This document shows, in pieces, positions 9,880 to 25,572 of a stretch of DNA of 37,152 nt. This stretch comes from a virus. Location: the IMG/VR virus record IMGVR_UViG_3300042515_001017, positions 1-37,152 of that record; one strand, 5' to 3'. Position numbers and translations under genes: made by a program. Below the pieces are notes generated by a model. It was not told the origin of the DNA. It worked only from the letters and a program-made list of their open reading frames with translations, and did no database searches. Positions within the stretch are counted from its first letter, which is position 1. Each line of letters starts with the position of its first letter.

Positions 9880-10112
9880 GAATTGAAAAGGCTTTGGAAC
9901 ATCTAGCCAACGAGAAAGACTTCATCTTCCAAGCAATACACAATCAAGATGATGTGCCTTACTCGCTTTACTGTCTTTTCAACGCACTCATGGAGCGTGA
10001 AGAACTGGAGTCAATCACAAGGCATATGACTCGCAAAGAATCGAATCTATTCCTAGACCTCGCCACATACTCATGCCAAGAACGCCCAAGCAGACAACCT
10101 GCCGGGAGTTAG
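9876..10112 (+). CDS. Hypothetical protein
   Basis: 78 residues, helical with a central Tyr/Cys-rich part (YSLYCLFNALMEREELESITRHM) and a polar C-terminus. ATGA overlaps the previous stop, and its last 40 bases overlap the HNH gene in another frame, so the end is less conserved-looking (ERPSRQPAGS). Function unknown. Confidence 0.65.
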   Translation: MRIEKALEHLANEKDFIFQAIHNQDDVPYSLYCLFNALMEREELESITRHMTRKESNLFLDLATYSCQERPSRQPAGS

Positions 10113-10456
10113 GTTGCTCCAACCCCAAGGTCAACAACTCTACATTTTGCGGCATCCACGGAGGTGCCCTATCTGAAGATCGCAAGTCATTTAACAGGCT
10201 TTACAACAGCAAGCAATGGAAGCAATTCAGACAGATCCAACTGTCTAAGCATCCGATCTGCGCTCGCTGCCAAAACCTGGGGAAAATAGCGCCGGCTCAC
10301 CACGTTGACCACATCTTCCCGCATAAGATGGACAGGGAAAAGTGGATGGGCAACCGATTCCAATCTTTGTGCCACGATTGCCACTCAATCAAAACAAACC
10401 TAGAAAAGAAGGGCGAAATCCACGATTATGTGGAGCAAAAGGTTTACACGGAGTAA
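10073..10456 (+). CDS. HNH endonuclease, packaging-type candidate
   Basis: 127 residues. An N-terminal zinc-like cluster (Cys10, Cys15, Cys26, His29) precedes the HNH core: Cys63-x2-Cys66, HHVDHIFP (His76, His77, Asp79, His80), Asn94, then LCHDCHSIKT (Cys100, Cys103, His104). Many HK97-like cos phages carry such an HNH gene just before terS, where it assists terminase cutting (HK97 gp74). Here 2.8 kb of accessory DNA separates it from terS, so that partnership is an inference. It overlaps the previous gene by 40 bases. Confidence 0.88.
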   Translation: MPRTPKQTTCRELGCSNPKVNNSTFCGIHGGALSEDRKSFNRLYNSKQWKQFRQIQLSKHPICARCQNLGKIAPAHHVDHIFPHKMDREKWMGNRFQSLCHDCHSIKTNLEKKGEIHDYVEQKVYTE

Positions 10457-10564
10457 AAAAATATTTTTTCCCGGCCAAAAAAATTTCCGGGCCTGACTTT
10501 CCGCCGGCCGGCCGGAAAAAGTTTGGAACATTTCCCAGAATTTTTTTTCAAAATTTTTTTTTAA
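10457..10564. other. Non-coding block of CCGG palindromes and A/T runs
   Basis: CCCGG (10470-10474) pairs with CCGGG (10487-10491) across an A7T3 loop. At 10498-10518 TTTCCG...CGGAAA encloses CGGCCG to form a near-perfect GC-rich palindrome. GGAAA (10514-10518) can also pair with TTTCC (10530-10534), followed shortly by T8 (10541-10548) and a second T run (10554-10562). This can stop plus-strand transcription from the HNH gene, but stem-to-T spacing is poor for a classical terminator. No convincing gene is present. Confidence 0.5.
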
Positions 10565-10586
10565 GCAGCTGGGATCAGAACTGAAA

Positions 10587-10760
10587 CCGACGAACGGTCG
10601 ATTTTGGGGGATGGGACTGACCAGCGGCAAATTCTGGCCGACGAACGGTCGATCGGCACAGGATCGCGGCACGAACGGCAAAAGGGCATGATAAGCGCAC
10701 CCGAGCGGCCGGTAAACCCGGATCGGCGGACCGAAAGGCGGATTTTGGGCGATGAACGGC
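10587..10760 (+). repeat. Phased repeat array A (seven GAACGG-type units)
   Basis: Degenerate units with consensus CGAACGG(T/C) have their four-base core (ACGG, GCGG or AAGG) at 10594, 10624, 10645, 10675, 10705, 10735 and 10756. Spacings are 30, 21, 30, 30, 30 and 21. Units 1 and 3 share CCGACGAACGGTCGAT exactly. Several are followed by ATTTTGG or ATTCTGG. Thirty and 21 bases are about three and two helical turns, placing all sites on one face of the DNA. Both are also multiples of three, and one plus frame reads as repeated D-E-R peptides without an ATG start. Confidence 0.72.
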
Positions 10761-10772
10761 ATTTTGGCGCGA

Positions 10773-10943
10773 CTATTCCAAAGTCGGCGGCTGACTGCTA
10801 AGGGCATAAGCCAAAGCCCCGGATTCAGTATTGAAAAGCGCCACCACAGGCAGCGGCTCGCCGTCGATGATCCACTGCGCCACCCATTGACCGCGAGCGT
10901 TAACGTATAAGCGCACTGCGCCACAATCCCTTTTGATCAGCAT
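10773..10943 (-). CDS. Small hypothetical protein of the accessory island
   Basis: 56 residues from ATG 10943 (AGGGG five bases upstream; the frame is open further but without a good site). The sequence looks like a small beta domain: CGAVRLYVNARGQWVAQWIIDGEPLPVVALFNTESGALAYALS. The V-N-A-R-G-Q-W-V-A-Q-W-I pattern suggests a genuine product. It lies downstream of the minus-strand terminator and of the GTAACC palindromes, so it probably has its own regulated promoter. No family recognised. Confidence 0.55.
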   Translation of the reverse strand: MLIKRDCGAVRLYVNARGQWVAQWIIDGEPLPVVALFNTESGALAYALSSQPPTLE

Positions 10944-11020
10944 AAAAACCCCTATAAAAGCCCGAAGGCATGACCGGCCAATGCGGCCACGAAAATGCTC
11001 AGGCAATCCCTAAGCGCTTT

Positions 11021-11071
11021 CGTAGGCGCAGGCAAGCGCAACCCAGCGCAAGCAAGCGCAGGGCAAGCGCA
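11021..11071. repeat. Five phased 10-bp repeats ending in GCGCA
   Basis: GCGCA recurs at 11026, 11036, 11046, 11056 and 11067. The best units are GGCAAGCGCA and AGCAAGCGCA. A spacing of ten bases puts each on the same DNA face, as for cooperative protein binding or an intrinsic bend. They lie immediately beside the GTAACC palindromes and upstream of the minus-strand gene at 10773-10943. Confidence 0.7.
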
Positions 11072-11072
11072 A

Positions 11073-11106
11073 GTAACCGGTAACCCTGGGTTACACCATG
11101 GGTTAC
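11073..11106. promoter_or_regulatory. Cluster of GTAACC/GGTTAC half-sites (operator-like)
   Basis: Half-sites GTAACC occur at 11073 and 11080, and GGTTAC at 11089 and 11101. The inner pair forms the perfect 15-base palindrome GTAACCCTGGGTTAC (11080-11094). Four half-sites in 34 bases in the upstream region of a minus-strand gene look like a dimeric repressor operator. No cognate regulator can be assigned. Confidence 0.6.
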
Positions 11107-11112
11107 AGGCAC

Positions 11113-11134
11113 AAAAAAAGCCCCGAAGGGCTTT
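11113..11134 (-). terminator. Rho-independent terminator for the minus-strand island operon
   Basis: Read on the minus strand: AAAGCCC, a TTCG tetraloop, GGGCTTT, then a T-rich run (plus-strand A7 at 11113-11119). The seven-pair stem with a stable UUCG-type loop is a strong intrinsic terminator. It ends transcription of the genes at 12894-11225. Confidence 0.85.
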
Positions 11135-11224
11135 CGCTAAAGCTTAATTTTCATAGCAAAACCTCATAGACTAAAAAAAATGGCGCAGGCAAGCGCCACA
11201 CCAAAAACAAAAGCCACAAGCCAA

Positions 11225-11950
11225 TCAAGCCACATGATTAGCAGACTTTCCGTGTGCGACAATCGCGATTGATACGCTTTCGGGCTTTAGTGCGCCGTCA
11301 CATGCGCCACAATCAACGCACTGGCGACGATTGCCGCCTTCAGGGCTTGCAGGACATGCGATCTCATGTTTAAGCGCTGGCGCTTGCATGACTGGGATAA
11401 CCCGAAATGTGCGCCAGCCCATACTCCGGGCTAAATCGCGATCTATAGCACTATCAGCGCTTGCCATGCACAATTCCCTATGCGCTTGCGCCCAAGCTTG
11501 CTTCCATTGGTGACTGTAACCGGTCCAACCCTTGGCAAAGGGCAGTATCGCTAACCATGCTTCGATATCGATCATTGCCGGATCGCCATAAGCGCCAAGT
11601 CGGACCATGCGATCGCGCAAAAGCCCAGCGCCTAAGCTTGGGTTATTCGAATAATCAGGGTACGAGCCACGCGTGAAAGCTTTATAAACTGCGCTAACCG
11701 ATTTTGAGACATCAACGTAACATGTGCGCTTGCGCGTTGCATCGCCGCGGTGCACACAATCCCCACAAATTGATACATCATCGGCGCTTTTAATTGCATC
11801 CATTGGATGCACATCGGCGCGCAATATATAGGTTTGGACCATGTCACCGGTTTTGATGTTTTTGCTTTTGAGTACCGCGATCCCGACAATTGGTGCGCCG
11901 TCTACTGGTGAAAAGCCACGATAAAAAATAAACCCTCTAGGTTTTGTCAT
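11225..11950 (-). CDS. Cysteine-cluster phage/plasmid protein (gp88-like C-terminus)
   Basis: 241 residues. GGAG lies six bases before ATG 11950. Visible blocks are KTGDMVQTYILRADVHPMDAI, a cluster CGDCVHRGD with Cys62, Cys65 and Cys77, then GAYGDPAMIDIEAW and GWTGYSHQWKQAW, then RSMGWRTFRV. The end is EIACPASPEGG with Cys199, Cys211, Cys214 and Cys217, closing with IAIVAHG. The 'CPA...CxxCxxC...IxxxAHG' ending recalls mycobacteriophage gp88-like proteins (PF17338). Six or more cysteines in clusters suggest zinc or an iron-sulfur centre. The family is unassigned biochemically. It is the largest gene of the island. Confidence 0.78.
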   Translation of the reverse strand: MTKPRGFIFYRGFSPVDGAPIVGIAVLKSKNIKTGDMVQTYILRADVHPMDAIKSADDVSICGDCVHRGDATRKRTCYVDVSKSVSAVYKAFTRGSYPDYSNNPSLGAGLLRDRMVRLGAYGDPAMIDIEAWLAILPFAKGWTGYSHQWKQAWAQAHRELCMASADSAIDRDLARSMGWRTFRVIPVMQAPALKHEIACPASPEGGNRRQCVDCGACDGALKPESVSIAIVAHGKSANHVA

Positions 11951-12021
11951 TTGAATCTCCGTTATTTACTAACCGATGCGGATCGCATCTCTGAGCCCAA
12001 ACAATGGGCTCGAAGATAAGA

Positions 12022-12321
12022 TCAATACCGAGCCCCATATGCTTGCGGATCGCTATCCAAAGCGCGATTCAAAATTTGATTTTTTACGATGGTATTGCGC
12101 TTATTGTTAAAAATAATCGCCCAACGCTCTCCAAAAAGCTCAATTTCAGTTTCCAATAAGATTCGATCCCACAAATGGCGATTGATGCCTATTACATCAT
12201 GCGATCCCCAGACGCAATCGGTGCATTGGCGCAAGCGCTGATATTGGTAACGTGAAAGCGCGCAGTCTTCATGGACAATTAAGCGCACGGATTTTTTTGG
12301 TCCGGTTACGGTGATAATCAT
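12022..12321 (-). CDS. Island paralogue 2 (hypothetical, Cys/His-bearing)
   Basis: 99 residues. It aligns with the next upstream gene: ITVTG, then ALSRYQYQRLRQCTDCVWGSHDVIGINRHLWDRIL against SLSAGQYKRLKRHLCGIEECQC...HDVSGIDHKRWGEIL. Shared features are the L-S-x-x-Q-Y-x-R-L-x helix, cysteines, the H-D-V-x-G-I turn and a Trp. The pair therefore arose by tandem duplication. No function is known; the shared Cys/His residues could bind zinc. Its start shares a base with the stop of the paralogue. Confidence 0.72.
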   Translation of the reverse strand: MIITVTGPKKSVRLIVHEDCALSRYQYQRLRQCTDCVWGSHDVIGINRHLWDRILLETEIELFGERWAIIFNNKRNTIVKNQILNRALDSDPQAYGARY

Positions 12322-12614
12322 TACAGTTTCCCCACATTGGCAAGCGCCTCAGCGCGATAAAAAGATTTATGGGCCATTGCCATACTGTTAAAAAGTATCT
12401 CTCCCCAGCGCTTATGATCAATGCCCGAAACATCATGCTTGAGGGTTTCGCACTGGCACTCTTCAATGCCGCATAAATGCCTTTTTAGGCGCTTGTATTG
12501 CCCAGCGCTTAAGCTTTCATCGCCGCCTTTGATACGCAAGCGCAGCGGCCCAACGTTATGAAAGCCACCCGAAACTGTAACCAGTGCATCTAACTGATAT
12601 TCGATTATTGCCAT
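12321..12614 (-). CDS. Island paralogue 1 (hypothetical, Cys/His-bearing)
   Basis: 97 residues. A beta-rich N-terminus (QLDALVTVSGGFHNVGPLRLRIKGG) precedes the helix SLSAGQYKRLKRHLCGIEECQC and the HDVSGIDHKRWGEILFNSM motif shared with its downstream neighbour. The leader GAGGGGAATCACATGGCAAT closely copies the one before the gene at 12894, so regulatory DNA was duplicated too. Function unknown. Confidence 0.72.
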   Translation of the reverse strand: MAIIEYQLDALVTVSGGFHNVGPLRLRIKGGDESLSAGQYKRLKRHLCGIEECQCETLKHDVSGIDHKRWGEILFNSMAMAHKSFYRAEALANVGKL

Positions 12615-12624
12615 GTGATTCCCC

Positions 12625-12894
12625 TCACTTGATATTTGGATAAACCGAAAAAACGTAGCCGAGGTTATCTAAGGTATTGCCACATACCCATAGTTGCTTG
12701 TCATGCAACTCTGGAGCGTATTTGACCAGCAAAGCTTTAGCGGCTAGTGCGTGGCGCGTCTCAGAATCAGCGCCATATTCAAAGCCCACGCTTGCGGTCC
12801 ATTTGGTGTTTTTATCAATAGTGCATGTTGCTTTGATACGAGCACCACGGGTATTGGTGGGCCCGACATATTTGGTGTGGATCGCTATTGCCAT
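12625..12894 (-). CDS. Hypothetical conserved island protein (IHTKYVGPTNTRGARIKA family)
   Basis: 89 residues. The N-terminus IAIHTKYVGPTNTRGARIKA is a phrase I associate with small proteins of phages and plasmids. It is followed by strand-like parts (KWTASVGFEYGAD), a helix (ALAAKALLVKYAPEL) and GNTLDNLGYVFSVYP. Probably a compact alpha/beta domain; no catalytic residues obvious. AGGGGAATCA precedes ATG 12894. First gene of the minus-strand island operon. Confidence 0.75.
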   Translation of the reverse strand: MAIAIHTKYVGPTNTRGARIKATCTIDKNTKWTASVGFEYGADSETRHALAAKALLVKYAPELHDKQLWVCGNTLDNLGYVFSVYPNIK

Positions 12895-12964
12895 TTGATT
12901 CCCCTATAAAAAAACTAGTCGATTGATTACAACGCGCCAATCCTAATCACAAAACCGACCCACC

Positions 12965-12988
12965 AAGCGCCACATCGGCGCTTTTTTT
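12965..12988 (+). terminator. Rho-independent terminator insulating the late operon
   Basis: AAGCGCC (12965-12971), loop ACATC, GGCGCTT (12977-12983), with T7 at 12982-12988. The seven-pair stem plus U-run is a strong terminator on the plus strand. It would stop early transcription that passes through the island antisense to its genes before it reaches terS. Confidence 0.85.
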
Positions 12989-12996
12989 ATGCCTGC

Positions 12997-13198
12997 CCGA
13001 TAACCGGTCGATTTCAGGCCCATAAACGGTCATGCGCTGCCGCTCGAGCCCATCCAAAGCCCACCAAAAGCGCTTTGGCGAGCGTAAACCCTTGATTTCA
13101 AACGACAAACCCCGATTTTCGTTATAACCTGCGACAGACGGTCGATTTCAGGGGTTAAAAGGGATCGACGGTCGATTACGGCCGACAGACGGCGAAAA
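12997..13198 (+). repeat. Phased repeat array B (same unit as array A)
   Basis: Units with the (A/C)CGGTCGATT core occur at 13004, 13026, 13138, 13168 and 13189, with a degenerate copy near 13103. The last three are spaced 30 and 21 bases, exactly as in array A on the other side of the island; the first two are 22 apart. The best copies are CGACAGACGGTCGATTTCAG and GATCGACGGTCGATTACGG; the latter contains the palindrome ATCGACGGTCGAT. All are in the same orientation as array A. Confidence 0.7.
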
Positions 13199-13240
13199 TG
13201 ACTTAAAAATTATAGCGGATAGGGAAGGGCAAGCGCGCGC

Positions 13241-13269
13241 TCGACTTTCTGCGGTCTAGCTTTTATAGG
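13241..13269 (+). promoter_or_regulatory. Candidate sigma70-like late promoter
   Basis: TCGACT (13241-13246), a 17-base spacer and TATAGG (13264-13269). Each hexamer matches four of six consensus positions. Expected transcription start is near 13276, about 38 bases before terS. It is the only clear promoter candidate ahead of the long late operon. Confidence 0.45.
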
Positions 13270-13284
13270 GGGGCTAAGACAAAA

Positions 13285-13299
13285 TAGGGAATTTCCCTA
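13285..13299. promoter_or_regulatory. 15-base palindrome TAGGGAATTTCCCTA
   Basis: A perfect inverted repeat TAGGGAA-T-TTCCCTA lies about 10-24 bases after the predicted late transcription start and directly before the AAGGAG ribosome site of terS. Position suits a repressor operator or an mRNA hairpin; a terminase recognition element is also possible. Confidence 0.5.
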
Positions 13300-13313
13300 C
13301 GCAAGGAGCTGTC

Positions 13314-13784
13314 ATGACTGCGCGAATTCCGGTTGAAGTCCATGCAATTCACGGAACGAGAGGAACGAAGATGGGCAAAAAGCTGCCTGAGCAACTCAAG
13401 CAAAGAATTCCTTTTGCTGAGTGGGCGGAAAATCCTGCGGCGTTTAATGCGTCAAAGTTTGTGCAGGAAACGGCTGATTATTTGTACGAGGTTTATGGGA
13501 TTGGAAGCGCCCAGGATCGGCATACACTCTTAATGCTGGCGGATCAGCTCCAGATTTATGTGAATGCTAGACAGGGAATGCTGACCGAGGACTTAGTGAT
13601 TTACACGAACAATGGCAAGACGGCTGCGCCTAACCCGCATATTGCAATTGCCAATGCCGCGGTCATTCATGCGATTAAGCTGATGAATGAGTTAGGATTA
13701 ACACCTAAGTCTAGGTTGGCATCCAACAAGACCGAAAACAAAAAGATAAACGACTTTTTAAGCGGACCTAAATTCGGTACATGA
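13314..13784 (+). CDS. terS: Terminase small subunit, P27-like
   Basis: 156 residues. The protein resembles P27-family small terminases (PF05119): an N-terminal basic part, a helical core DYLYEVYGIGSAQDRHTLLMLADQLQIYVNARQGM, and the conserved G-K-T-A-A-P-N-P-H-I-A-I-A-N-A-A-V-I-H-A-I-K-L stretch, then ELGLTPKSR. It binds the packaging site and regulates the large subunit. AAGGAG lies six bases upstream of ATG 13314. The stop overlaps the terL start (ATGA). Confidence 0.88.
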   Translation: MTARIPVEVHAIHGTRGTKMGKKLPEQLKQRIPFAEWAENPAAFNASKFVQETADYLYEVYGIGSAQDRHTLLMLADQLQIYVNARQGMLTEDLVIYTNNGKTAAPNPHIAIANAAVIHAIKLMNELGLTPKSRLASNKTENKKINDFLSGPKFGT

Positions 13785-22190: not shown

Positions 22191-22395
22191 TGATTTATTG
22201 AGTTACCTCATTGCTCAAGCCCAAACCGGAGCTAAGAACTGGTTTGGGTATCCTCAACAGCGTTTGATTAACATCAATCTCTGTCACAAGATAGCAGAGG
22301 CTCATGCGCCCGACATGACTCCGGAAGAGGTTGTGAATTACGTCATCAAGCTCAACGATCTTATTTACAAGCGGATTGTTACCAATGGAGTTTGA
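22174..22395 (+). CDS. Hypothetical tail-region protein
   Basis: 73 residues, helical: DDLLSYLIAQAQTGAKNWFGYPQQRLININLCHKIAEAHAPDMTPEEVVNYVIKLNDLIYKRIV. It overlaps genes on both sides in different frames. Order (tube gene, two small genes, gp10-like gene, chaperone) is unusual. No family recognised. Confidence 0.62.
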   Translation: MQRASDDLLSYLIAQAQTGAKNWFGYPQQRLININLCHKIAEAHAPDMTPEEVVNYVIKLNDLIYKRIVTNGV

Positions 22396-22852
22396 GGTAA
22401 AAGGGCTAAAGGAGCTGGAGAAAACGCTTCTGGACATGCAGCAAGAATTTGGCTCTACTGCGGCCAAAAGATCCTTGGTGCCCGCTCTTAGGAAAGCTGT
22501 TGTTCCCGCAAAAGACTACATTAAATCAATTGCGCCTGTAGATACTGGCCGCATGAGGACGACGGTTCGTGCTGGTGCTAAAGTTGCATCCGGCAAAGAT
22601 AAGAAGAGAAAGTATCTAAACCAAAATACACTTGCTTTTGGTTATGTCGATGTTGGCGTTAAGTATTACGACGAGAAAGGTGAATATCGACCGGCCACAG
22701 AGGCTCGTGAATTTGGCACAGCAGATCAAGCGGCCACACCTTTTATACGGCGCGGTTTTCAAACTGCTATACCAAACATGTTAGAAATACTAAGACAAGA
22801 TCTAGGCACTCATTTAAACAATTGGGCGGCAAAACAAAGGGCGAAAAGATGA
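22385..22852 (+). CDS. HK97 gp10-like head-tail / minor tail protein
   Basis: 155 residues from ATG 22385 (TTG 22376 in frame is an alternative). EFEVKGLKELEKTLLDMQQEF, then ALRKAVVPAKDYIKSIAPVDTGRMRTTV is the hallmark of HK97-gp10 family proteins (PF04883), with 'aP.DTG.lr' as key phrase. The C-terminus has the 'ATPFIRRGF' pattern. The family acts at the head-tail junction. It usually lies before the tail terminator; here it follows the tube gene, a shift in gene order. Confidence 0.85.
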   Translation: MEFEVKGLKELEKTLLDMQQEFGSTAAKRSLVPALRKAVVPAKDYIKSIAPVDTGRMRTTVRAGAKVASGKDKKRKYLNQNTLAFGYVDVGVKYYDEKGEYRPATEAREFGTADQAATPFIRRGFQTAIPNMLEILRQDLGTHLNNWAAKQRAKR

Positions 22853-23310
22853 AACTACACGAACGTCTGGGCGGTTTCCAGAGAAAAAAATACAAAACAA
22901 TCCAGTTTAACGGCCACGATTTGGAAGTCTATGTTCCTACTCGCAACGAGATGCAGGAACTTATGGCAAAGATGCGTAAGCCTTCGGATGAAGTTGTTGA
23001 GGCCGAGTATCAAGCGCTTTTGCAGTCACTGTGGGAATTCGCGACTCCTAACGATGACGGCATTAAAGTCACTGACGACGATGTCATAGTTCAGGGGTCG
23101 AGCATGAAAACCACCGCTCGATACAAAGCCATACAAAAGATGCGCGAGATTGCAATGATTTCGCTTGTCGGGTTTAAGGAGGGCGAAGATTTATTTGCCC
23201 TGTCTTATGACGATATTTCTGAAACGCTGTCTGAAGTTGACATCAAGCATCTTGTAGAGCTTGTGCAAAAGACAGTTGATCCCTCTTACGAAGAAACGAA
23301 AAAAAACTAA
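22849..23310 (+). CDS. Tail assembly chaperone, short form (G-like)
   Basis: 153 residues from ATG 22849 (ATGA overlap). It begins KLHERLGGFQRKKYKTIQFNGHDLEVYVPTRNEMQELM and ends VELVQKTVDPSYEETKKN at a TAA immediately after a slippery run. Size, position before the tape measure gene and the recoding site identify it as the lambda G counterpart, which together with a frameshifted long form coats the tape measure during tail assembly. Sequence similarity to lambda G itself is not evident. Confidence 0.85.
   Translation: MKLHERLGGFQRKKYKTIQFNGHDLEVYVPTRNEMQELMAKMRKPSDEVVEAEYQALLQSLWEFATPNDDGIKVTDDDVIVQGSSMKTTARYKAIQKMREIAMISLVGFKEGEDLFALSYDDISETLSEVDIKHLVELVQKTVDPSYEETKKN
23301..23307 (+). other. 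Programmed -1 ribosomal frameshift site A-AAA-AAC
   Basis: The heptamer A AAA AAC sits in the correct phase (xxA AAA AAC TAA), with the zero-frame stop directly after it. Slipping back one base continues in CTA ACT GGG and stays open for 122 further codons up to 23675. GCTGC...GCAGC downstream (about 23338-23362) may give weak stimulatory pairing. Confidence 0.92.
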
Positions 23311-23675
23311 CTGGGTCGCTATATCTTCAGATTAGAGCTGCTGCGATATTTAACGGGCAGCGGCCAGAAGTCTTTGATAATCTTGATGTAGCGACCGTAA
23401 GAGCGTTAGAATTGATGTGGCGCGACGGCGTAATTGGTGGCAGGCAAAACCTGATGCTAATGTCGCACATGATGGCGATTGTCTGGAATATCGGGTCTTC
23501 TTTCTCTCGCAATCCGCAGTCTAAGAAGCCTCAAGAGTTTTTCCCGCATTTGGAGGAATATTTCATACCTCCAAGCAACATGACAAGACAAGAGCGCGAT
23601 TTTCTAGCATTCACTTCGCTACCAGGATTTCGCAAAGAGTTTCTTGACATCTTAGGGGGAAACAATGGCAGGTAA
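23307..23675 (+). CDS. Tail assembly chaperone, frameshift extension (T-like)
   Basis: Read only by -1 frameshifting at 23301-23307; the fused GT-like product would have about 275 residues. The extension continues LTGSLYLQIRAAAIFNGQRP and VATVRALELMWRDGVIGGRQ, then a hydrophobic stretch MLMSHMMAIVWNIGSSF and a C-terminal helix. No in-frame start with a ribosome site occurs before 23412 (TTG), so independent translation is unlikely. Its end overlaps the tape measure start by 11 bases, as in other siphoviruses. Confidence 0.88.
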   Translation, partial: LTGSLYLQIRAAAIFNGQRPEVFDNLDVATVRALELMWRDGVIGGRQNLMLMSHMMAIVWNIGSSFSRNPQSKKPQEFFPHLEEYFIPPSNMTRQERDFLAFTSLPGFRKEFLDILGGNNGR

Positions 23676-25572
23676 GATGATCGCCGGTTTACAAGTCGGC
23701 CTGGGCCTTGATAGCGCAGAGTTTAAAAAAGGCGCTGACGAAGCCAAGAAGAAAGCTCAAGAGCTAGGCCAAACGCTTGAATCTACCGGCCAGCAAACAA
23801 GGTCTTATTCGTCCGCATTGAACGATGCGGCTAATGCGAAAAAGAACTTCCAATATAACCTCAGAAATATTGGTTATCAGGTCCAAGACTTTTCTGTACA
23901 GGTTGCTTCCGGAACGTCGGCAGCGCAAGCCTTTACTCAGCAGCTTCCGCAGCTTTTAAGTGGCTTTGGCACATTAGGTGTAGTTCTCGGAAGCCTTGCG
24001 GCTGTTGGCATTCCGTTAATTACTGTTGCATTCTCAAGCCTGACAAAAGATGTAAAGACTCTTGAGGACGCGACAAAAGACGCATCAAGTGCGGCTGCTC
24101 AATTCGTGGCCGCAAACAATAAAGCTGCGTTATCGCTAAAAGATATTGGCGAAAGTTATTACAGCGACGCTGCGCCAGCTTTAAAGGCTTTGTATCAACA
24201 GCTTTACGACATATCAAAGCTAAAGCTCACTAACGAAATCAAAGAGTTCACTAAGGCGCTGACAAATGAATACGCGCCTATATGGAAGTTAGCGCTCCCC
24301 GAAATTTTCAAGCCTTTTATGGATTCTCCTATAGAGAAGCTATCTAAGGATCTTGGCGTTTCTCAGCAAGAAGCCAAAAAGCTATTTGAAGAGTTAAGAG
24401 CGTTTGACCAAGGTAAGCGCACGTTTGAAGAGCTGCGGGACTTTGTTTTAAGCCTTGCGCTCAACACAAAAGAAGCGACCAAAGAAGGTGCCAAGTTTAG
24501 AGAGCAGCTTCTGCAAACATTTACAACAATACAACAAGCTTTAGCTGAAAAAAGCGAAACCCAGAAAAAAGAAGAAAGCGAGGCCGAGAAGAACGCCAAG
24601 CGCCAAGCCGAAAGAACCAAGGCTTATATAGATGGGCTGGACGCTCAGATTCGCAAGCTACGCGAAGGCGAAGATGCCGCATTACGATTTGAGGCCGCTA
24701 AATATGGTTCAGAAGCCCTGCAAAAAGCCAATGAATTAATTGCTGCAAAACACGCCAAGGAAATAGAAAAGCCTGAGTTTTTAACAGCCATTTTTGGCAC
24801 AGACGAATCTAGAAAAGACTTTTTGGCCCAAGTGCAGGCTGATATTAAACAGGCCGCTAAAGATCTTGACTACGGCGCGTTATTCCCTAATGCACAGCCA
24901 TTTGACAAGCCAAAACCTATCGGAAAAGAGCAATCTTATGATGAGATGCTTGCGCTTGCTAGGCGCGAGATTGAGGCATCGCTGACACCGCTAGAAATAC
25001 TTGGTGAAAAGTTACAGCGAGTCGATCAGTTGCTATCAGAGGGTTTTATCACTGAAGAGCAATACTTCAAGATTGTCAACAAATACTTTGCAGACATGAA
25101 GGGTCAGATTGATCCAATGAAGGAATTGTTGGAAGACCTTCGTGACGGGTTTAAGAGTCTTGGCGCTGAAATTGTTGATGCGTTTATGCGCGGTAAGTCA
25201 GCCGCCGAAGCTTTCAAAAACTTGGCTAAAAGTTTGTTCCAACGACTTGCTACAAAATCTCTTAATCGTTTCATTGATTCTTTTCTTCCTTCTGGCTCAT
25301 CTTTTACGGACCTGTTTAAAGCCAGCGGTGGACCGGTTAATAGCAATCAACCTTACATTGTTGGCGAAAAGGGCCCTGAGCTATTTGTACCGAAATCAAG
25401 CGGGACGATTGTCCCTAACAACGCGCTAGCGGCCACGGGAGGTAGCGTTGTTTATAACATTCAGGCGATTGACGTTAAATCGTTTGAAGAGCGAATCATG
25501 GGCAGCAATCGAGCGGTTTGGGCTGCAAACGCCTACGCTCAGAAATCACTCTCACCGAGAGGTCGAGCATGA
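23665..25572 (+). CDS. Tail tape measure protein
   Basis: 635 residues. The N-terminus IAGLQVGLGLDSAEFKKGADEAKKKAQELG is the usual tape measure start, followed by coiled coil, a hydrophobic segment near residues 92-125 (LPQLLSGFGTLGVVLGSLAAVGIPLITVAF), long charged helices (to about 480), and the C-terminal RDGFKSLGAEIVDAFMRGKSAAEAFKNLAKS with FKASGGPVNSNQPYIVGEKGPELFVP. At about 1.5 angstrom per residue it predicts a tail near 95 nm. It sets tail length and may help DNA entry. No lysozyme or peptidase domain seen. Confidence 0.95.
   Translation: MAGKMIAGLQVGLGLDSAEFKKGADEAKKKAQELGQTLESTGQQTRSYSSALNDAANAKKNFQYNLRNIGYQVQDFSVQVASGTSAAQAFTQQLPQLLSGFGTLGVVLGSLAAVGIPLITVAFSSLTKDVKTLEDATKDASSAAAQFVAANNKAALSLKDIGESYYSDAAPALKALYQQLYDISKLKLTNEIKEFTKALTNEYAPIWKLALPEIFKPFMDSPIEKLSKDLGVSQQEAKKLFEELRAFDQGKRTFEELRDFVLSLALNTKEATKEGAKFREQLLQTFTTIQQALAEKSETQKKEESEAEKNAKRQAERTKAYIDGLDAQIRKLREGEDAALRFEAAKYGSEALQKANELIAAKHAKEIEKPEFLTAIFGTDESRKDFLAQVQADIKQAAKDLDYGALFPNAQPFDKPKPIGKEQSYDEMLALARREIEASLTPLEILGEKLQRVDQLLSEGFITEEQYFKIVNKYFADMKGQIDPMKELLEDLRDGFKSLGAEIVDAFMRGKSAAEAFKNLAKSLFQRLATKSLNRFIDSFLPSGSSFTDLFKASGGPVNSNQPYIVGEKGPELFVPKSSGTIVPNNALAATGGSVVYNIQAIDVKSFEERIMGSNRAVWAANAYAQKSLSPRGRA

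Follow-up and report, generated by a model that had tools for sequence, protein, structure and literature searches.

A cargo cassette at the cos end of a freshwater phage genome, flanked by clusters of putative operators of a host AlgR/LytTR-type regulator

In phage lambda, the packaging element cosB combines R sites with an IHF site, the repeats lying on both sides of the latter and close to cosN. The cos site of phage HK97 carries a 10-nt 3′ overhang (PMC9410871, PMC11331095); one of these two papers has 10 nt in the legend of a figure and 12 nt in its discussion. HK97 TerS binds 15–29 bp from the cut, on the terS side (PMC9410871, PMC11331095). Among bacterial regulators, AlgR has a consensus with a 9-bp core, CCGTTCGTC, and controls type IV pilus genes; its sites are reported to work also from afar and whichever way they point (PMC4064291). 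For other members of the LytTR family, the operators consist of 9-bp direct repeats separated by 12-bp gaps and located near the −35 element (PMC6193735).

Here, we describe a phage locus that can be set beside all of these systems. It is found in the 37,152-base virus record IMGVR_UViG_3300042515_001017, which was analysed as a whole and is hereafter called the window. The first and last 127 bases of the record are identical, meaning that it represents a genome of ~37 kb that is probably closed. The source is a freshwater phage with the gene set of an HK97-type tailed phage, i.e. genes for an Erf-like annealing protein, an SSB, an exonuclease, an O-like initiator, a weakly P-like protein, an HNH endonuclease, terS, terL and a portal protein. 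Its closest named relative found is the Methylophilaceae phage P19250A, whose TerL is 67% identical. Between the HNH gene and terS lies an island of minus-strand genes that is flanked by two repeat arrays, A and B (Table 1).

Table 1. Features of the HNH–terS region of the window, with strand and the match, conservation or reasoning behind each assignment
Feature	Position	Strand	Basis or remark
HNH endonuclease gene, last before the cassette	10073..10456	+	PHROG 144, E 6.8e-24; above the Pfam HNH cut-off
A/T-rich conserved stretch (T-tracts, then AAGCAGCTGGG) between HNH gene and array A	10535..10575	+	kept across both clades of island phages
Array A, seven putative AlgR/LytTR-type units	10587..10765	+	L054-based matrix; shuffled controls; kept in relatives; published consensus
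P6 gene, 56 aa, adjoins array A	10773..10943	-	
PHROG 2554 gene, 241 aa, cysteine-rich	11225..11950	-	E 2.1e-70
Island gene, 99 aa	12022..12321	-	no family match; relative in G001
Island gene, 97 aa	12321..12614	-	95% identical in G001
First island gene, 89 aa, PHROG 3199	12625..12894	-	E 5.7e-12
Terminator-like hairpin 5′ of array B	12965..12988	+	sequence kept in G001
Array B, six putative units	12997..13198	+	matrix and conservation in relatives
Perfect IHF consensus within array B	13085..13097	-	kept in all array-B-bearing relatives
AATRACTTAAAAA box beside cosN, conserved	13198..13210	+	also in array-less relatives
Predicted cosN, 10-nt 3′ overhang CAAGCGCGCG	13230..13239	+	contig ends; HK97 precedent
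A/T tract where HK97 has its TerS site (+15 to +29)	13254..13268	+	position by analogy
terS (Terminase_4)	13314..13784	+	

Judging from the ends of related contigs, 10457–13239 is the right end of the packaged genome, which terminates at an HK97-like cos. Four window-type contigs start at CTCGACTTTC (13240) and seven from close relatives at CCTAACTTTC, while right ends read ...CTCCTCAG in three contigs, ...GCAAGCG in three and ...GGGAAGGG in L038. The ten bases missing from these ends are CAAGCGCGGC in continuous relatives and CAAGCGCGCG in the window; this is the pattern expected from end repair of a 10-nt 3′ overhang and places the cut between array B and terS, directly 3′ of array B. As the right end of G001 overruns the cut by 14 bases, the assignment is strong rather than perfect. 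Many relatives have ~50 bp from the HNH gene to the cut, with the AATRACTTAAAAA box and no array. A further group of relatives (L061, L063–L065, L070, L076, L080, L081, L084, L087) carries a coding region of >1 kb between cos and terS and no island; by eye, this region reads as a ParB-like or methylase gene.

The arrays themselves are a real and conserved motif. Units of array A start at 10587, 10617, 10638, 10668, 10698, 10728 and 10749, giving exactly the steps of 30, 21, 30, 30, 30 and 21 bp that the first-pass annotation had read from the sequence. It had also assigned array B the same core, the same orientation and a 30/21 step, all of which we confirm: its units start at 12997, 13019, 13102 (degenerate), 13131, 13161 and 13182, with steps of 22, 83, 29, 30 and 21 bp, and all 13 units of the two arrays lie on the plus strand. 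Spacing is thus 21 or 22 bp at some steps and 29–30 bp at others, the 30-bp step prevailing in array A; identity shared between the two arrays is short. A 17-position scoring matrix made solely from the diverged relative L054 recovers nearly all units of both arrays; the array A unit at 10698 scores <3.5 bits with this independent matrix. Array A contains five matches >10 bits inside 200 bp, compared to a maximum of two in 200 dinucleotide shuffles of the whole window, and the rest of the genome has no cluster comparable to either array. The clustering likewise held against locally shuffled sequence, in which the observed unit counts were reached in 2 of 2000 shuffles for array A and in none of 2000 for array B. 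The IHF consensus that splits array B is one of two perfect matches in the whole window, where about one would be expected by chance.

Comparison of relatives with and without the island ties the arrays to it. Every relative copy of the island found between the HNH gene and terS (G001, G021, G022, L054, L057, L059) is flanked by arrays at nearly fixed positions and spacing, as had been predicted for relatives that keep the island, and G019 retains array A in a record that ends within the island. Array-less relatives have no island, and most relatives have cos and lack both. The exception is G007, in which a single three-unit array occurs without island or P6; this genome may have arisen by deletion or may represent an ancestral state. 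When the two clades of island phages are compared, agreement is higher in the 9-bp cores than in the spacers (66.7 versus 46.2% in array A; 75.9 versus 62.4% in array B). Elsewhere in the genome, genes of the tail region (22376–25572) are 94–99% identical to those of the array-bearing G001 and G019 and ~41–78% identical to those of array-less relatives, which probably reflects shared lineage with the former two.

Between its constant arrays, the island is a discrete cassette, in line with the first-pass description, and it is horizontally variable. Its content changes across relatives, drawing on PHROG 2554, PHROG 3199 and small proteins, and only P6 is constant: every two-array island phage has it, no array-less phage does, and no other gene shows this distribution. 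P6 has a predicted β-β-β-β-α fold, and a fold search returned weak matches only, to AP2 and integrase arm-binding domains. The same kind of search with a model of the PHROG 2554 protein gave no useful match. Homologues of the latter lie near the genome ends of Caulobacter phage S2B and Mycobacterium phage jiawei, suggesting a class of genome-end genes, and such genes would presumably enter the cell early. The 89-aa PHROG 3199 protein has an apparent homologue, recognised by eye, in the unrelated contig L255, where it sits behind a unit pair. In L058 and L059, the variable cassette includes a sliding-clamp-like protein (DNA_pol3_beta_2).

Some further sequence features of the island deserve mention. 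The sequence CTTTTATAGGGG is common to the regions upstream of P6 and of the first island gene and to the cosN–terS gap, and it could represent a promoter or ribosome-binding element; a count that tolerates two mismatches does not exceed chance. AAGCGC occurs 10.9 times per kb in 10457–13200 and 0.8 times per kb in the rest of the genome (~13-fold denser), a density that is also strong in G001 and G019 and weak in G021 and G022. AAGCTT, CGGCCG and ACCGGT are enriched in the island as well. Blastn of the 4-kb region against phages gave no match, the array A region returned only chance-level matches among phages and plasmids, and Rfam yielded no match near threshold.

What, then, might bind the arrays? 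Read on the opposite strand, the unit core GACGAACGG gives the published AlgR consensus. Two units, those at 10587 and 10638 in array A, contain the exact 9-mer and the remainder match it at six to eight of nine positions, a correspondence that was noticed after the fact. None of the 13 units has a −10-like TANNNT at 28–52 bp, which argues against the arrays being simple promoter operators. No LytTR domain was found in any phage record tested, the window included, and the regulator would therefore be the host's. Combining the match to the AlgR consensus, the repeat layout, which is LytTR-like at some steps, and the lack of a phage-encoded LytTR protein, we take the units to be probable AlgR/LytTR-type sites for a host regulator.

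The unit is not confined to this lineage. A pattern scan of viral contigs revealed it three times at 21-bp steps in phages without a detectable window protein. Three-unit sets of this kind mark a second, unrelated phage group (L138, L144, L162, L218, L222, L229, L230, L237, L247), in which they adjoin a long perfect hairpin that lies upstream of a gene on the minus strand. The two-unit pattern matched more contigs, several of which show −35- and −10-like elements, resembling a sigma70 promoter, directly after the pair; the clearest cases are L254, L256, L258, L264, L266, L268 and L269. Across 46 non-redundant pairs, and measured from the start of the unit, TANNNT was about twice as frequent at 34–38 and 44–48 bp as at adjacent offsets, a modest trend in a set that includes chance pairs. 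L256 and L258 each carry several promoter-like sites with one or more unit pairs directly upstream of each.

In bacteria, a scan of the entire genome collection with the strict pair pattern gave only four matching stretches. A freshwater Legionellales MAG (L269, L270, L291–L302) contains 15 exact units, some of them inside duplicated stretches, versus one for the reversed control. Its single LytTR protein, which is AlgR-like, is encoded between an AlgZ-like kinase and hemC, i.e. in an algZ–algR–hemC order with names read from the sequences. Thiorhodospira sibirica, which has one LytTR protein, likewise AlgR-like, carries a unit pair in front of a pilin gene, and pilin genes are among the targets of AlgR. 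Tandem pairs were not generally enriched in class-wide scans, being rare in the class, and literature searches on phage decoys of host regulators and on the exact 10-mer yielded nothing informative. From the core sequence, the 21-bp spacing and the bacterial occurrences, we infer that the units are AlgR/LytTR-type sites.

We would put at roughly even odds the reading that the island is a genome-end cargo cassette at cos and that the clusters on either side of it are operators of a host AlgR/LytTR-type regulator. Once bound to the arrays, and aided by an IHF-induced bend in array B, this regulator would build a nucleoprotein complex on one side of the island or on both. Such a complex would set transcription of the minus-strand cargo by the signalling state of the host and might perhaps also act on the terS operon. 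Relative to the first island gene on the minus strand, array B lies ~100–300 bp upstream, and it sits just before cos and terS; we hypothesise that the role of the arrays is transcriptional. Points that count against this reading are the weakness of several units relative to the consensus, the dominance of 30-bp steps in array A, the rarity of tandem pairs, the missing −10-like element at the expected distance from all 13 units, the location of part of the Legionellales units in duplicated stretches and the post hoc nature of the motif match. The main functional rival to regulation is titration, whereby the arrays act as decoys that capture the host regulator as phage DNA multiplies and so shut down its regulon, e.g. 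pili or surface polymers. Decoys would account for 13 units per genome without a promoter at the usual distance and for the exact consensus 9-mers in array A, but many units are weak, and the fixed spacing, the IHF site and the constant place around one operon rather resemble a regulatory layout; we regard titration as improbable. A ligand encoded by the phage itself, such as P6 or one of the early winged-helix-like proteins, which would organise or insulate the cassette, would fit the distribution of P6 as well as its small β-sheet-plus-helix fold and the AP2/integrase arm-binding resemblance. Yet those fold matches are weak, G007 has units without P6, and the unit recurs in unrelated phages and in bacteria that lack any detectable window protein, all of which makes such a ligand quite improbable.

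Packaging, one of the roles raised in the first-pass annotation, could be invoked where array B adjoins cosN in a repeat–IHF–repeat arrangement reminiscent of lambda cosB: array B would then be a cosB- or cosQ-like element for terminase or the HNH protein, and array A a displaced copy. We consider this very unlikely, given that array-less relatives share the cos core together with similar TerS, TerL and HNH proteins (TerS of the array-less L008 is 88% identical to that of the studied phage), that HK97 TerS binds the opposite side of the cut and that the unit recurs near promoters in unrelated phages. Since most relatives have cos and a similar TerS and no arrays, the arrays seem dispensable for packaging. 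TerS was also rejected as the array ligand, there being no consistent TerS difference between array-bearing and array-less phages. Lowest in our estimation, at slim odds, stands the possibility that the arrays provide shared homology for exchange or deletion of the cassette, with G007 as a deletion product. The common orientation of arrays A and B, the varying gene content between them and the direct joining of array-like units to the cos side in the island-free G007 are what recombination would predict, but it leaves the conservation of cores over spacers and the recurrence of the unit close to promoters of unrelated phages in need of another reason, and the identity between A and B is short. 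An iteron origin was likewise discarded: the O-/P-like proteins are 100% identical in the array-less G035 and missing from the array-bearing G001, so that these genes swap independently of the arrays and an origin is unlikely; few repeats turned up near the O-like gene. As for the proposal that the repeats bind one protein, they do look like the sites of one DNA-binding protein; the suggested origin and centromere-like roles are not supported, the latter in view of the lack of a partition gene among the window genes scanned.

With regulation by a host AlgR/LytTR-type protein as the preferred reading, the arrays suggest that the phage ties its cassette genes to a host signalling protein. If true, this would be a rare example of an unexplained phage repeat whose regulator is identifiable by name from sequence data; it would render phage reading of host signalling directly testable and offer a way into the study of cargo cassettes at cos ends. 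The shared motif could also assist in assigning uncultured phages to hosts that carry AlgR. A broader picture is possible, if doubtful: unrelated aquatic phages may share the operator of a host two-component regulator, and one lineage may have placed enhancer-like paired clusters around its genome-end cargo, with expression that reads host surface or pilus signalling or with titration of the regulator.

How does the locus compare to the systems described at the outset? As in lambda cosB, repeats flank an IHF site near cosN. However, array B lies on the HNH side of cosN rather than on the terS side and is made of another repeat, and most relatives using this cos lack arrays. With the HK97 cos, the locus shares the 10-nt 3′ overhang and an HNH gene and terminase beside the cut, but in this lineage the HNH gene is separated from the cut by arrays and cargo (PMC9410871, PMC11331095). 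The AlgR operators of algD and algC in Pseudomonas aeruginosa have the same 9-bp core and several sites per regulated region (PMC4064291), whereas the phage-borne units are 13 in number, form two clusters whose steps measure 21 and 30 bp, have no promoter at the usual distance and would respond to a regulator that the phage does not encode. Finally, although the arrays are longer than known LytTR operators, mix their spacings and orient the core differently relative to the promoter, at their 21-bp steps they share with these operators the direct repeats with 12-bp gaps, and in unrelated phages the same unit is found near −35 elements (PMC6193735).
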